Source of the DNA: Candidatus Methanoperedentaceae archaeon HGW-Methanoperedenaceae-1
GTDB lineage: Archaea > Halobacteriota > Methanosarcinia > Methanosarcinales > Methanoperedenaceae
Direction: 5' to 3'
NCBI GenBank assembly: GCA_002839545.1
Contig: PGYG01000001.1
Location: 1 to 45,123, forward strand
DNA length: 45,123 nt
Under the pieces are notes generated by a model. The model saw nothing but the letters and a program-made list of their open reading frames with translations. It did no database searches and was not told the origin of the DNA. Below are positions 21,976 through 33,938 of the stretch, in pieces. The position numbers were made by a program, and so were the translations under genes. Positions within the stretch are counted from its first letter, which is position 1. Each line of letters starts with the position of its first letter.

Positions 21976-22626
21976 TCATGATTTATTGAGTTCCTTAATT
22001 TTCCGAAGCACAAGAACGGCATCCTCACGCTTCACATCAACTTCGTTCTCCACGAAATAATCAACCAGCTTATTCCGGTCTTCCTCCCCGATAACTCCTT
22101 TTTTTACACATTCATCTGCGATATTCCTGAAATTCCTGTCAGGATAAAATATCTTACGGGTAACATCAAGCACTCCAGCCGCCTGTTCCTGCGTGAGTAC
22201 TCCTGCATCCTGTGCAGCATCAAGTGTCAGCCTGATATTCACAAGCGGGACAGACAACGGCTCAAGCGTCTCAGGGTCAAACGTAACCGCGACTTCATCA
22301 TCAGACTCAAGTACACCGTTTTTATACATCTCATAAATCCTGCCAACACCAATCATCCCGTAAGGCTCAAGCTCATAAGCACGAAGCGCCCCCATGCTTG
22401 ACCCCCCGACAACGGTAATCCCTTCTTTTAGCGCCTCGATAATCTCACGGTGCGCAACAGCCGCGCTGTTAAAAAAAACTCCTTCTATTATACCGATGAT
22501 ATCCGGCGAGGAACCTATTATCTTCCTGATATCATCGCGCTTCACAGGCGGGCGGTAATCTGCATCCAGAATATTCTTCGCTTCGCTGTGGCTTATACTC
22601 ATACCTGTATAGACCACGACTTTCAT
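21976..22626 (-). CDS. tfuA: TfuA-related McrA-glycine thioamidation protein
   Basis: VVVYTGMSISHSEAKNILDADYRPPVKRDDI...GIIEGVFFNSAAVAHREIIEALKEGITVVGGSSMGALRAYEL; 4-nt overlap with ycaO. Confidence 0.92.
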   Translation of the reverse strand: MKVVVYTGMSISHSEAKNILDADYRPPVKRDDIRKIIGSSPDIIGIIEGVFFNSAAVAHREIIEALKEGITVVGGSSMGALRAYELEPYGMIGVGRIYEMYKNGVLESDDEVAVTFDPETLEPLSVPLVNIRLTLDAAQDAGVLTQEQAAGVLDVTRKIFYPDRNFRNIADECVKKGVIGEEDRNKLVDYFVENEVDVKREDAVLVLRKIKELNKS

Positions 22627-23864
22627 GCCGCTCTCACTCTCTTCTTATTTATCCTGATACGCTTTCCTGTGCGCTCCCTGTCAATCGTATAAAGTTCAAA
22701 ATACGGGATAACCGCCCTTACAACAGGGATATCCACTCCGCGTGAAAGATTGACTATTATTGCCCCCTCGGCAGCATCATCAAGAAGTTCAATTACCGTA
22801 TTGATATTCGCATAAGGCGTGTTACTGGATTTATCTTCCATTTCATCCATCCGCACGGTCTCAAGTTCCTCGTACCAGAACCAGTTCATCCGTTTCATGT
22901 GCTCATACCCGAAAGTACGCACAACCTGTTCCCTGTCCGTATCCTCGCGCGCCCCGTGTATCTGGACGACACGGCTCTGCGCCGCTTCTGTAAGCGCCCT
23001 TGCCACAGCTATCTCAGGCGACAGGTGCGAGCCGGCTCCCATGACAAGAAGCGCAGGGTCATGAAGGACCGTATCATCTGTTGCAGCAACGACAGTTGGT
23101 AAACCCACGTCATGGTCAAGGAGCCAGAGTTTTACCTGCACGCCAGCTTCTTCCATGCGCCGCTTGAGTTCGTAATTCAAACCGTCTGATTCGTCAAGCA
23201 CGATTTCCCGCCCAGGATTCCTGGTATATTCTGCAATCCCGAGTGCATCCCTTTCAATAACCTCAAGCAGACCGTGAAGAACCGCTTCCTCAATGGTATT
23301 CCCTGAGGCAAGACCGTTTGTATTGCTCCTGAAAAGCTGGCTGCTGCCCGCAGGGTTATACGGGTGGAACACGGCATTTGACGGAACCATGACTTCGACA
23401 TCATTCAAAATATCCAACCCTGAAATCCATTCAATAGAGGTATCACTGGCAAACGGCATAGGTAAAAGCAGGGCATCAGGATACAATGTCGGGTAACTCT
23501 CACTGATGCTTTCGTAAGTATCGATTACCCGTTCGGCTTCAAGCTGGATACCGTTTAAGTTGTTGCTGGTTTCAGGCTGTTCCGCAAGACATCTCTCAAA
23601 GCTTTCCATGATTGCAGAAATCCTCGCATTGGTCTCGGTTGAGCCTTTTCCTGAATAAATTGAAATTGCACCCTGTCCCGCGCTTGGTCTTATTGCTGAA
23701 AATACCGGGATGCCGACACGGTCAAGGTCTGTAATATTGGCTATCCGTGTCACGCCGATTTCAGGGAGGAGCTTTGTGGTATTCAGAAGCGTGGTCTCAG
23801 GGTCAAGTACCCGTTGTGTTCCTTCCATATACCTGATATTCGGGTCGATTGTAATCTTGCTCAT
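22623..23864 (-). CDS. ycaO: YcaO-related McrA-glycine thioamidation protein
   Basis: Internal start MSKITIDPNIRYMEGTQRVLDPE...PSAGQGAISIYSGKGSTETNARISAIMESFERC...GLLEVIERDALG. Confidence 0.92.
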   Translation of the reverse strand: MSKITIDPNIRYMEGTQRVLDPETTLLNTTKLLPEIGVTRIANITDLDRVGIPVFSAIRPSAGQGAISIYSGKGSTETNARISAIMESFERCLAEQPETSNNLNGIQLEAERVIDTYESISESYPTLYPDALLLPMPFASDTSIEWISGLDILNDVEVMVPSNAVFHPYNPAGSSQLFRSNTNGLASGNTIEEAVLHGLLEVIERDALGIAEYTRNPGREIVLDESDGLNYELKRRMEEAGVQVKLWLLDHDVGLPTVVAATDDTVLHDPALLVMGAGSHLSPEIAVARALTEAAQSRVVQIHGAREDTDREQVVRTFGYEHMKRMNWFWYEELETVRMDEMEDKSSNTPYANINTVIELLDDAAEGAIIVNLSRGVDIPVVRAVIPYFELYTIDRERTGKRIRINKKRVRAA

Positions 23865-23991
23865 AGTGACGGATTCCTGCATTTTGTAGGGTGTGGATTT
23901 GAGAATACTATACCTTGCGGTAAAGGGGAATAACCTAATAAACTTAATGGATGGGAACGCGAATATTGAATCAAAAAAGGAATAAGGCCTT

Positions 23992-24954
23992 ATGGAACTT
24001 GAACTCACGAACACTGTTGATAACCTCTGCGATTACACATATAATTTCACATGGCAGGACCAGAAACTGCGCCCTGGCGACATAATACCTTCACAGAAGG
24101 ATACGGATTTTACGTTCGGGAACCTTGTTGATGAACTGAAAAAACAAAAAGAGGTCAGGATTTCCGGGAATGCCGGGAAAAGGCTTGGTTACAGCATGGG
24201 CGTGGGTTTAAAGCATTTCGGCGGAAAGGGCAAACCTGAAAAAGCTGGAACCATTTATGTGGAAGGAAACGTTTCTCCTGAGATGGGAATGGGCATGGTT
24301 TCAGGTACAATCTATGTTAAAGGAAGTATCGAAGAGCCGGTGGGCAATATTGTCGAGGTTGTGTCTGATGAGGAAGGATTCCGAAAATTCAGGTCGATTA
24401 CTGATATTCTCTGCAATGGATTGGGGAAAGACGAGCTTTCAGGGAACAGTTTTGACAGGAAAAAGAAACACCTGTTGCTGGATGACAGGATACTTCGCGG
24501 GACAGTTGCAGCGCGGTGTGACTGTGATTCCCTTATCACGGTGGAAGGCGATGTATATAACGGCACAGGGCTTTTGATGACAAAAGGCACAGTCCACGTT
24601 ACCGGGGATGCGGGAATGAACACAGGCGCGCACCTTGACGGAGGAATGGTTGTGGTTAAGGGACTGGCTGGTGAGTTTGCCGGCGCGTACATGAAAAAAG
24701 GAACTATTATCCTGAAAGACGCAAAGGGTTTTGCAGGCGCGAATCTTGAAGACGGGATAATTTATGCACGAAAAAGCATCAGGACATCAAAACCTGTGGA
24801 AGAGCTTGGGATGTCAGAGGTTGACGGGAAAGTCATAATGAAACATCTCGGTATCAGGCAGGTCGAGGCTATGAGTTACCATAAGTACGGGATACTGAAA
24901 GAGAAGCTTTTCCGTATGCGTGACGGGTCTTTTATGCTGAGGAAGATTGAATAA
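23992..24954 (+). CDS. GXGXG-motif beta-helix protein (FwdC/FmdC- or glutamate synthase C-terminal-like)
   Basis: Repeating GTIYVEGNV.., GTIYVKGSI.., GTVHVTGDAGMNTGAHLDGGMVVVKGLAGEFAGAYMKKGTIIL motif pattern. Confidence 0.78.
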   Translation: MELELTNTVDNLCDYTYNFTWQDQKLRPGDIIPSQKDTDFTFGNLVDELKKQKEVRISGNAGKRLGYSMGVGLKHFGGKGKPEKAGTIYVEGNVSPEMGMGMVSGTIYVKGSIEEPVGNIVEVVSDEEGFRKFRSITDILCNGLGKDELSGNSFDRKKKHLLLDDRILRGTVAARCDCDSLITVEGDVYNGTGLLMTKGTVHVTGDAGMNTGAHLDGGMVVVKGLAGEFAGAYMKKGTIILKDAKGFAGANLEDGIIYARKSIRTSKPVEELGMSEVDGKVIMKHLGIRQVEAMSYHKYGILKEKLFRMRDGSFMLRKIE

Positions 24955-25043: not shown

Positions 25044-25601
25044 ATGTTCCTTCCAACACCTGAAGACCTTAAAAAAATAAGGCATGAACTTGGGCTTACC
25101 CAGAATGAAGTTGCATCGCGCGCAGGCGTGAGCCAGCCATTGATTGCGCGTATCGAAGCAGGGGATGTTGACCCGCGTCTTTCAACGATGCGTAAGATAT
25201 TCAATGCATTTGACCTGGCAAGGAAGGAGCGGGTTGAGGTCAGGAAAATCATGCATACGCCTGTGATTCATACGAGTTCTGACCATTCGGTTGAGCAGGC
25301 AGCAAGGATTCTGGAAGAGCACGGTTTTTCCCAGATGCCTGTTATTGATGGCGGTGTGCCTGTCGGGAGCATTTCAACCGACCGGATTGTTCATTCAATG
25401 ACAGACCAGGATATCAAGAAGCTTTCAAATCTTCCTGTCGGGGATATAATGGATGAATCGTTCCCGACGGTTTCCCCGAATACGGATGCTAATTCTGTTT
25501 CAAGGATTGTGGAACAGCACCCTGCTGTCCTTGTGCTTGAAAAGGGAAAAGTGGTGGGTGTCGTGACAAAGCACGACATCATGAAGATGCTCAGGGGATA
25601 A
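25044..25601 (+). CDS. XRE-type HTH protein with two CBS domains
   Basis: LKKIRHELGLTQNEVASRAGVSQPLIARIEAGDVDPRLSTMRKI (HTH); EEHGFSQMPVIDGGVPVGSIS and HPAVLVLEKGKVVGVVTKHDIMKML (CBS). Confidence 0.92.
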   Translation: MFLPTPEDLKKIRHELGLTQNEVASRAGVSQPLIARIEAGDVDPRLSTMRKIFNAFDLARKERVEVRKIMHTPVIHTSSDHSVEQAARILEEHGFSQMPVIDGGVPVGSISTDRIVHSMTDQDIKKLSNLPVGDIMDESFPTVSPNTDANSVSRIVEQHPAVLVLEKGKVVGVVTKHDIMKMLRG

Positions 25602-25620
25602 ATACATATTACCTGAGTAC

Positions 25621-25809
25621 TATTAGGTGCTGTCCGGCCTACGAACCGGACCAATCGTGTTGTTAGGTCCTTGCGCAAGAACGGCAAAGCCAGTCTATGA
25701 CCGTACAGACAACCCCAACGCGGTACACGCGATAATGCCTGATACAGGGTTTTTACGGTGACAGACAACGGCAATTGCCAGTGGTTGAAGTCACTGGGTT
25801 AGTATTAGG
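25621..25809. other. Hairpin-dense intergenic segment, possible structured RNA or mobile-element end
   Basis: GTCCGG..CCGGAC, CTTGCGCAAG, CGCG-GTACA-CGCG, GGCAATTGCC, CCAGTG-GTTGAAGT-CACTGG; TATTAGG near both ends; lies between convergent genes. Confidence 0.4.
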
Positions 25810-25843
25810 CTACAGCAACTTTTACTTTGTTTTCTCCAATCTG

Positions 25844-27115
25844 TTACATCTCATCAGCGCTGCGCCCATCGATGATTGGCTCAAGCATGAAGTACTTCTC
25901 AACGTACTTTTTAAGCTCCTCATCAGAAATGGCTGACACGCGCTTCTCCTGGTTATACAGCTTCTGTATATCAGCCTGTATGGCTTTCACGCGCGGGTCT
26001 TGTTTATCAACCGTTGTTTCGATATGCATTAACTCATTCAGTGTCTCCTCAACCTTGAAGCGAATAACCTCAAGCCCTGAAGAATCACCTATCAATAACA
26101 GCCTCTTCCCACCCACAAGTTCAGGAAGGTACGGCTCGTATGTGAACGGGTTCTTTATCACGCCTGCTGTATGAATCCCGCTTTCATGGGCAAAGATATT
26201 CTTCCCCACAACAGACTTATTGCGCGGAACCCTGATACCTATCTCCTTTTCCATATATCGTGCAAACTCGGTGACACATTCCAGGTTGTATTTATCAAAC
26301 CCTTCAACCCTCTGCATGAGGAAAATAGCAATCTTCTCAAGCTCTGCATTCCCTGCCCGCTCGCCAATTCCCAAAAACGTAAGGCTTGACCAGTTAGCGC
26401 CATGCCAGTACCCTGCAAGGGAGTTGGAAATAGACAAACCGAAATCATCATGTATATGCGTCTCGATGTTTATTGCCCCGATTTCCCGGAGTCTCCGGGT
26501 CAGGTAAGGGATGCCATACGGTTCACCAACATCAGCAAAAGGAAGACCGTAACCAAGCGTATCGCACATCCTGATTGTACAACCAGGGTCAATCTCAAGC
26601 AGTTTCTTAACAAGCGGCAATACGAATCCCTCGTTATCAGCGCGGGTCATATCCTCAATATGCGCCCTTGTGCGAAGCCCGTGGTCAACTGCGTACTGAA
26701 GCGCGTCTGTGTATTTCTTCTCAGCCTCCTCGCGGCTTGCAAGCCCCATCTTGTCAATAATATGTGAATCAGACACCGACATTAAAATACCAGTTTCCTT
26801 AATCCCGTCCATCTTAAGGACAACATCAATATCCTTCGGGTTTGCGCGCGCCCACCCTGTAACTTCGGGAAACTCGTAACCCCTGTCAAGCATTTCCCTG
26901 ACAGCTTCCTGGTCGCGCTCGTTATACACAAACGTTTCAAGCTTTTCGATACCAATCTGGTGAAGGTACTCGAAAATCTGGAGCTTGTGCCTCTTTTTCA
27001 TCACTATTCCCGGCATCTGGGAGCCGTCCCTGATAGTGCTGTCGCTGATAAAAACTTCCTGCCCGAACGGCAGTTTTATCTTGGGTAAATCCTCGTATGT
27101 TTTGTAAACTTTCAT
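25844..27115 (-). CDS. Homocitrate/isopropylmalate synthase family (HMGL-like) protein; could be Re-citrate synthase or a homocitrate synthase
   Basis: VFISDSTIRDGSQMPGIVMKKRHKLQIFEYLHQIGIEKLETF; ETHIHDDFGLSISNSLAGYWHGA; GKNIFAHESGIHTAGV; lacks the LeuA allosteric domain. Confidence 0.85.
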   Translation of the reverse strand: MKVYKTYEDLPKIKLPFGQEVFISDSTIRDGSQMPGIVMKKRHKLQIFEYLHQIGIEKLETFVYNERDQEAVREMLDRGYEFPEVTGWARANPKDIDVVLKMDGIKETGILMSVSDSHIIDKMGLASREEAEKKYTDALQYAVDHGLRTRAHIEDMTRADNEGFVLPLVKKLLEIDPGCTIRMCDTLGYGLPFADVGEPYGIPYLTRRLREIGAINIETHIHDDFGLSISNSLAGYWHGANWSSLTFLGIGERAGNAELEKIAIFLMQRVEGFDKYNLECVTEFARYMEKEIGIRVPRNKSVVGKNIFAHESGIHTAGVIKNPFTYEPYLPELVGGKRLLLIGDSSGLEVIRFKVEETLNELMHIETTVDKQDPRVKAIQADIQKLYNQEKRVSAISDEELKKYVEKYFMLEPIIDGRSADEM

Positions 27116-33871: not shown

Positions 33872-33911
33872 GCGGGATAATCTCCCGCAGGGATGTGGCC
33901 CGTAAGCGGGC
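33872..33911 (+). promoter_or_regulatory. Two hairpins in the L15e 5' leader
   Basis: GCGGGA-taatc-TCCCGC (33872-33888) and GCCCG-taag-CGGGC (33898-33911), ~27 nt before the start codon. Confidence 0.6.
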
Positions 33912-33938
33912 TGAACCGTAAAACACAAGGTGAAAACA

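Follow-up and report, generated by a model that had tools for sequence, protein, structure and literature searches.

A conserved two-hairpin RNA gene of the Methanoperedenaceae with the features of an archaeal box H/ACA guide and two predicted pseudouridylation targets in 23S rRNA

The window, i.e. the whole stretch of 45,123 nucleotides that was analysed here, comes from a genome of the Methanoperedenaceae (the ANME-2d family), in line with its AksA-like protein, the nearest relative of which (91% identity) stems from a MAG labelled Candidatus Methanoperedenaceae. Its segment 25621-25809 lies, in agreement with the initial annotation, between two convergent genes, which code for a helix-turn-helix/CBS (HTH-CBS) protein upstream and for an HMGL-like, homocitrate-synthase-type protein downstream. 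Inspection of the reading frames revealed no convincing open reading frame in this segment, which bears out another statement of the initial annotation, and a protein gene was rejected on that ground. The features of the locus are presented in Table 1; they include a small-RNA gene on the + strand, the transcript of which would be expected to end near position 25817 (ACA+3). Two adjoining genes further upstream, coding for TfuA-like and YcaO proteins, are found at 21976-24014 on the minus strand. In methanogens, such a TfuA/YcaO pair is linked to the thioamidation of peptides or proteins.

Table 1 Features of the RNA locus and its surroundings. Positions are those of the window.
Feature	Position	Strand	Sequence or pairing	Basis or remark
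HTH-CBS gene	25044-25601	+		upstream neighbour, ~30 nt before the RNA gene
Weak TATA-like element	25600..25611	+	AAATACATATTA	sequence; putative promoter
Small-RNA gene	~25632-25818	+		non-coding
Short 5' hairpin	25632..25651	+	GTCCGG-CCTACGAA-CCGGAC	Methanoperedenaceae alignment
Initial motif	25632-25637 / 25646-25651	+	GTCCGG / CCGGAC	
Hairpin 1	25655..25723	+		covariation, helices 1-4; model alignment
Hairpin 1 lower stem	25655-25662 / 25716-25723	+	TCGTGTTG / CAACGCGG	
Pocket 1, 5' guide	25666..25669	+	GGUC	pairs with GACC of 23S GGGUU-[U]A-GACC
Initial motif	25670-25679	+	CTTGCGCAAG	
Hairpin 1 upper stem		+	UUGCG/CGUACA	GA..UGA kink-turn-like motif
Pocket 1, 3' guide	25711..25715	+	AACCC	pairs with GGGUU of 23S
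Initial motif	25719-25722 / 25728-25731	+	CGCG / CGCG	
ACA box of hairpin 1	25725..25727	+		sequence; ACA, AUA or AAA in relatives
Hairpin 2	25737..25810	+		covariation, helices 5-7; model alignment
Hairpin 2 lower stem	25737-25745 / 25802-25810	+	GCCTGATAC / GTATTAGGC	
Pocket 2, 5' guide	25746..25751	+	AGGGUU	pairs with AACCCU of helix 69
Hairpin 2 upper stem	25756-25762 / 25790-25796	+	CGGTGAC / GTCACTG	
Initial motif	25770-25779	+	GGCAATTGCC	
Initial motif	25778-25783 / 25792-25797	+	CCAGTG / CACTGG	
Pocket 2, 3' guide	25798..25801	+	GUUA	pairs with UAAC of helix 69
3' terminal ACA box	25812..25814	+		sequence, conserved
T-rich run	25820..25834	+	TTTTACTTTGTTTTC	sequence; probable terminator
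HMGL-like, homocitrate-synthase-type gene	25844-27115	-		downstream neighbour, convergent

The folding energy of the segment is unremarkable (z = -1.47 on the + strand, with 16 of 200 shuffled sequences folding as well), and the minus strand gives a similar value (z about -1.4). Since this is only mildly better than shuffled sequence, counting hairpins is not sufficient by itself to make a case; the segment stands above chance because of its conservation in the Methanoperedenaceae and its strong covariation. A structure of 33 pairs, built by hand and scored on 44 distinct copies, has standard pairs in 93.7% of the cells and changes on both sides at 25 of the 33 pairs, with a covariation score of 0.499, compared to 0.232 for shuffled alignments and at most 0.10 when the structure is slid. 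For 20 copies from other families, the alignment of which was fitted to the model made from the 44 copies, the score was 0.716 (0.270 shuffled). The structured RNA proposed as a candidate in the initial annotation is thus strongly supported, both covariation and copies in related genomes having been found, the opposite of what would speak against it. All of the motifs listed at that time are present in the sequence (Table 1), and two of the five proposed hairpins are retained in part or in full: GTCCGG/CCGGAC forms the 5' hairpin of the Methanoperedenaceae, and the GGC/GCC core of GGCAATTGCC is kept. The other three find no support in the comparison. Neither CTTGCGCAAG nor CGCG..CGCG is conserved as a hairpin in relatives, and it is with CGGTGAC, not CCAGTG, that the CACTG arm forms its stem, which leaves the suggested mutually exclusive switch without support. 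As to the TATTAGG repeat reported near both boundaries, its second copy falls within the 3' strand of a stem, and its first copy lacks conservation in relatives.

The architecture that emerges is that of two hairpins approximately 10 nt apart. In each of them a pocket lies between a lower and an upper stem, and an ACA box comes after the hairpin. According to the rule published for archaeal H/ACA RNAs, the lower stem has 7-9 bp, and 14-16 nt separate the ACA from the pair closing the pocket (PMC4652768). The lower stems of the window RNA, with 8 and 9 bp, are within this rule. The distance from the ACA to the closing pair in hairpin 1 is 14 nt when a GUC/GAC pairing in the pocket is formed and 16 nt when it is open, while in hairpin 2 it is 15 nt in the window and approximately 17 nt in those Methanosarcinaceae copies that carry a CG bulge. 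Both 3' guides begin 14 nt before their ACA. In both upper stems a GA on the 5' strand and a UGA on the 3' strand are conserved; judged by eye, they resemble a kink-turn, which (or a K-loop in its place) is the L7Ae-binding element in the upper stem of archaeal H/ACA guides.

The pockets were read by taking as target the reverse complement of the 3' guide, followed by UN and the reverse complement of the 5' guide. The predicted targets are 23S GGGUU-[U]A-GACC for hairpin 1 and helix 69 of 23S rRNA, GUAAC-[U]A-UAACCC, for hairpin 2. Placing them by sequence context, we take these sites to be the equivalents of E. coli U2586 and U1915, respectively. The E. coli numbering of the target sites also rests on the numbering table of Grosjean et al. 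(PMC2584109). In 14 of the 15 genomes, both 23S sites are among the four highest-ranking of 577-960 uridines, rank 1 not being reached everywhere; in the fifteenth (G046) only pocket 1 fails, as there is no match for hairpin 1. The guide-target duplexes are short (9-11 bp each), and the sequence of the hairpin 1 site does not vary among the 15 genomes. Helix 69 varies among families, and the guide co-changes in part: Methanoperedenaceae combine UAACCC with the guide GGGUUA and family f4 combines UGACCC with GGGUCA, while in family f2 UGACCC faces GGGUUA through a G-U pair. A mismatch adjacent to U1917 is kept by many guides of the Methanosarcinaceae. As the sole target of hairpin 2, U1917 is not favoured in the window, but it comes out level with U1915 in several genomes of the Methanosarcinaceae. 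For pocket 1, the 16S sequence GGGUU-UA-AAGGG slightly outscores the 23S site in both Methanoperedenaceae genomes. It was nevertheless rejected as the conserved target of this pocket, since 16S rRNA reads GGGUC in three other genomes (G150, G042 and G055). Two peculiarities of the pockets should be mentioned. The conserved GUC/GAC pairing of pocket 1 competes with the target and would need to open for binding, and in the genus of the window an insertion of approximately 3 nt on the 5' side of pocket 2 (25746-25755, AGGGUUUUUACGG vs AGGGUUACGG) moves the guide away from the upper stem. Of the four proteins Cbf5, Nop10, Gar1 and L7Ae, the first two were searched for, and both are encoded in the same genome (443.9 and 74.7 bits, respectively).

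Because structure, boxes, spacing and targets were all tested and agree with those of archaeal H/ACA guides, the RNA was provisionally placed in that class, and we consider it very probable, judging from sequence, that the segment encodes a two-hairpin box H/ACA small RNA guiding two 23S pseudouridylations. Neither the competing pairing in pocket 1, nor the insertion in pocket 2, nor the 5' hairpin, nor the absence of a third hairpin (stem I, described below) changes this verdict. In each hairpin, an open pocket would separate two stems, the second of which bears a kink-turn-like motif, and the ACA box would come next. Once transcribed and assembled with Cbf5, Nop10, Gar1 and L7Ae, the RNA would accommodate two segments of 23S rRNA in its pockets, and the particle would present one uridine of each segment to Cbf5, which would convert it to pseudouridine. 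For hairpin 1 this would be the peptidyl-transferase uridine that corresponds to U2586, and for hairpin 2 the helix 69 uridine that corresponds to U1915, with U1917 as a possible further target, as proposed for haloarchaea. A guide is thereby predicted in the Methanosarcinales, including the genetically tractable Methanosarcina, for two pseudouridines of central functional importance, in helix 69 and the peptidyl transferase centre.

The gene is widespread. A DNA search recovered it in nearly every Methanoperedenaceae genome at approximately 80-90% identity, with weaker matches in other families of the order, and a sequence-only model detected it in 179 of the order's 188 genomes, with a single copy in almost all of these. 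The structure model derived from the Methanosarcinales matched at full length in 216 of 298 genomes (88 of 109 genera) sampled across the phylum, numerous other families being among them; the weakest of the matches lie near E = 0.001-0.01. One genome (G188) has two strong full-length copies, on contigs 9 and 24, compared to one almost everywhere else. In two 4-Mb genomes of family f23 (G359 and G419, contig 1 in each), the RNA gene is located within approximately 0.5-2.3 kb downstream of a 23S gene, on the opposite strand. The Rfam scan proposed with the initial annotation gave no match to the segment: Rfam 15 matched it neither in the window nor in ten homologous loci. The covariance model of RF00064 (HgcG/Pab40) in particular has no match at the gathering score, nor at E up to 10 in the window, and the RNA is not assigned to that family. 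A riboswitch was rejected as well: when E values up to 10 were allowed, the top Rfam hit was azaaromatic (yjdF), on the minus strand, with 16.8 bits, far below the gathering score of 45. The kind of RNA, by sequence an H/ACA guide, is already known, while the family is absent from Rfam, and the present analysis yields a covariance model for it. Elsewhere in the window, at 33873-33922, the eL15-Euryarchaeota ribosomal protein leader (RF03144) was detected with 48.1 bits.

The lack of a matching Rfam family, together with an accessory 5' hairpin that is conserved and has an invariant loop, would also suit an RNA of some new class, acting in trans as a regulator or scaffold, that merely resembles H/ACA RNAs. 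We regard this as improbable in view of the two ACA boxes, the pocket spacing, and the rRNA matches at two sites known as pseudouridines, seen in nearly all tested genomes. The start of the RNA approximately 30 nt after the HTH-CBS gene in this genome raises the question of a cis-acting element of that gene, either a riboswitch or a 3' UTR element. However, the neighbours of the RNA gene and their orientation vary from family to family, the downstream gene is convergent, and the RNA is preceded in relatives by a TATA-like box, which in the aligned copies is clearer than in the window (CCTATATACTTAAAAA, approximately 29 nt 5' of the 5' hairpin), making a cis-acting role very improbable. Indeed, the TATA-like box in relatives, the T-rich run and the varying neighbours make the RNA gene look like an independent, + strand transcription unit. 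The mobile-element relic considered in the initial annotation (a transposon end, an IS200/IS605 right end or an omega-RNA, expected in multiple copies near tnpB) has nothing but intergenic hairpins in its favour and can be practically dismissed, as the element is single-copy in the window's genome and near-universal in the order at one copy per genome, none of the six neighbouring proteins scanned (HTH-CBS, HMGL-like, GXGXG, YcaO, TfuA and NAD-binding) is a tnpA or tnpB product, and the hairpins are two ACA-terminated guides with covariation and H/ACA pockets.

As for the H/ACA guide that we favour, its closest known counterparts include hairpins of haloarchaea. The 23S rRNA of H. marismortui carries pseudouridines at positions 1956, 1958 and 2621 (E. 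coli 1915, 1917 and 2586; PMC2584109). Two haloarchaeal H/ACA hairpins were predicted by Grosjean et al. (2008, PMC2584109), HP1 being directed at 2621 and HP2 at 1956/1958, and these authors related the two to stems II and III of the Pyrococcus RNA Pf7, which has three hairpins. Since the hairpins of the window RNA have the same order and the same 23S targets as HP1/HP2 of Haloferax volcanii and others, it was taken to be their Methanosarcinales counterpart and is probably their ortholog, the comparison being one of published descriptions. HP1 and HP2 are however described with a long spacer (PMC2584109), unlike the closely spaced hairpins of the window RNA. Pf7 of Pyrococcus furiosus and Pab40 of P. 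abyssi (HgcG, RF00064) are also multi-hairpin H/ACA guides, although Pf7 has three hairpins and the window RNA two. Also similar by description is Afu4 of Archaeoglobus fulgidus, an H/ACA guide cited for the helix 69 position E. coli 1915 (PMC2584109). The literature searched contains no report of an H/ACA guide of this sort in the Methanosarcinales, and earlier knowledge of copies is possible; the available portion of the Methanolobus transcriptome study names SRP RNA, RNase P and three C/D RNAs, and no H/ACA RNA (PMC5378194).

In several other families, a third H/ACA-like hairpin ending in ACA, stem I, stands directly 5' of the two hairpins, as in Pf7 (loci L244-L251 and L254, as well as L155-L158, L160 and L165). 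Its pocket fits 23S GGCUUGC-[U]A-CCUCG best or nearly best in most genomes tested, and this site, which from sequence context we presume to lie at approximately E. coli 2496, is present in every 23S sequence where the search could read that region. Stem I is absent from the locus in the Methanoperedenaceae and Methanosarcinaceae, which suggests loss. Between families, the case thus displays both guides that change along with their targets and a guide hairpin that appears to have been lost. At the place of stem I, the Methanoperedenaceae have the short 5' hairpin, the loop of which (CTACGAA, or CUACGAA in the RNA) is invariant in 30 of 30 copies. The loop was rejected as an antisense element: its exact complement UUCGUAG was found in neither the 16S nor the 23S rRNA of two Methanoperedenaceae genomes, and the loop does not fit the stem I target. 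It is a tentative and rather doubtful suggestion that this hairpin might be a conserved binding or pairing module, giving the Methanoperedenaceae RNA a second function beside rRNA guiding. The same CUACGAA loop also occurs in two copies of family f4 (L163 and L168).
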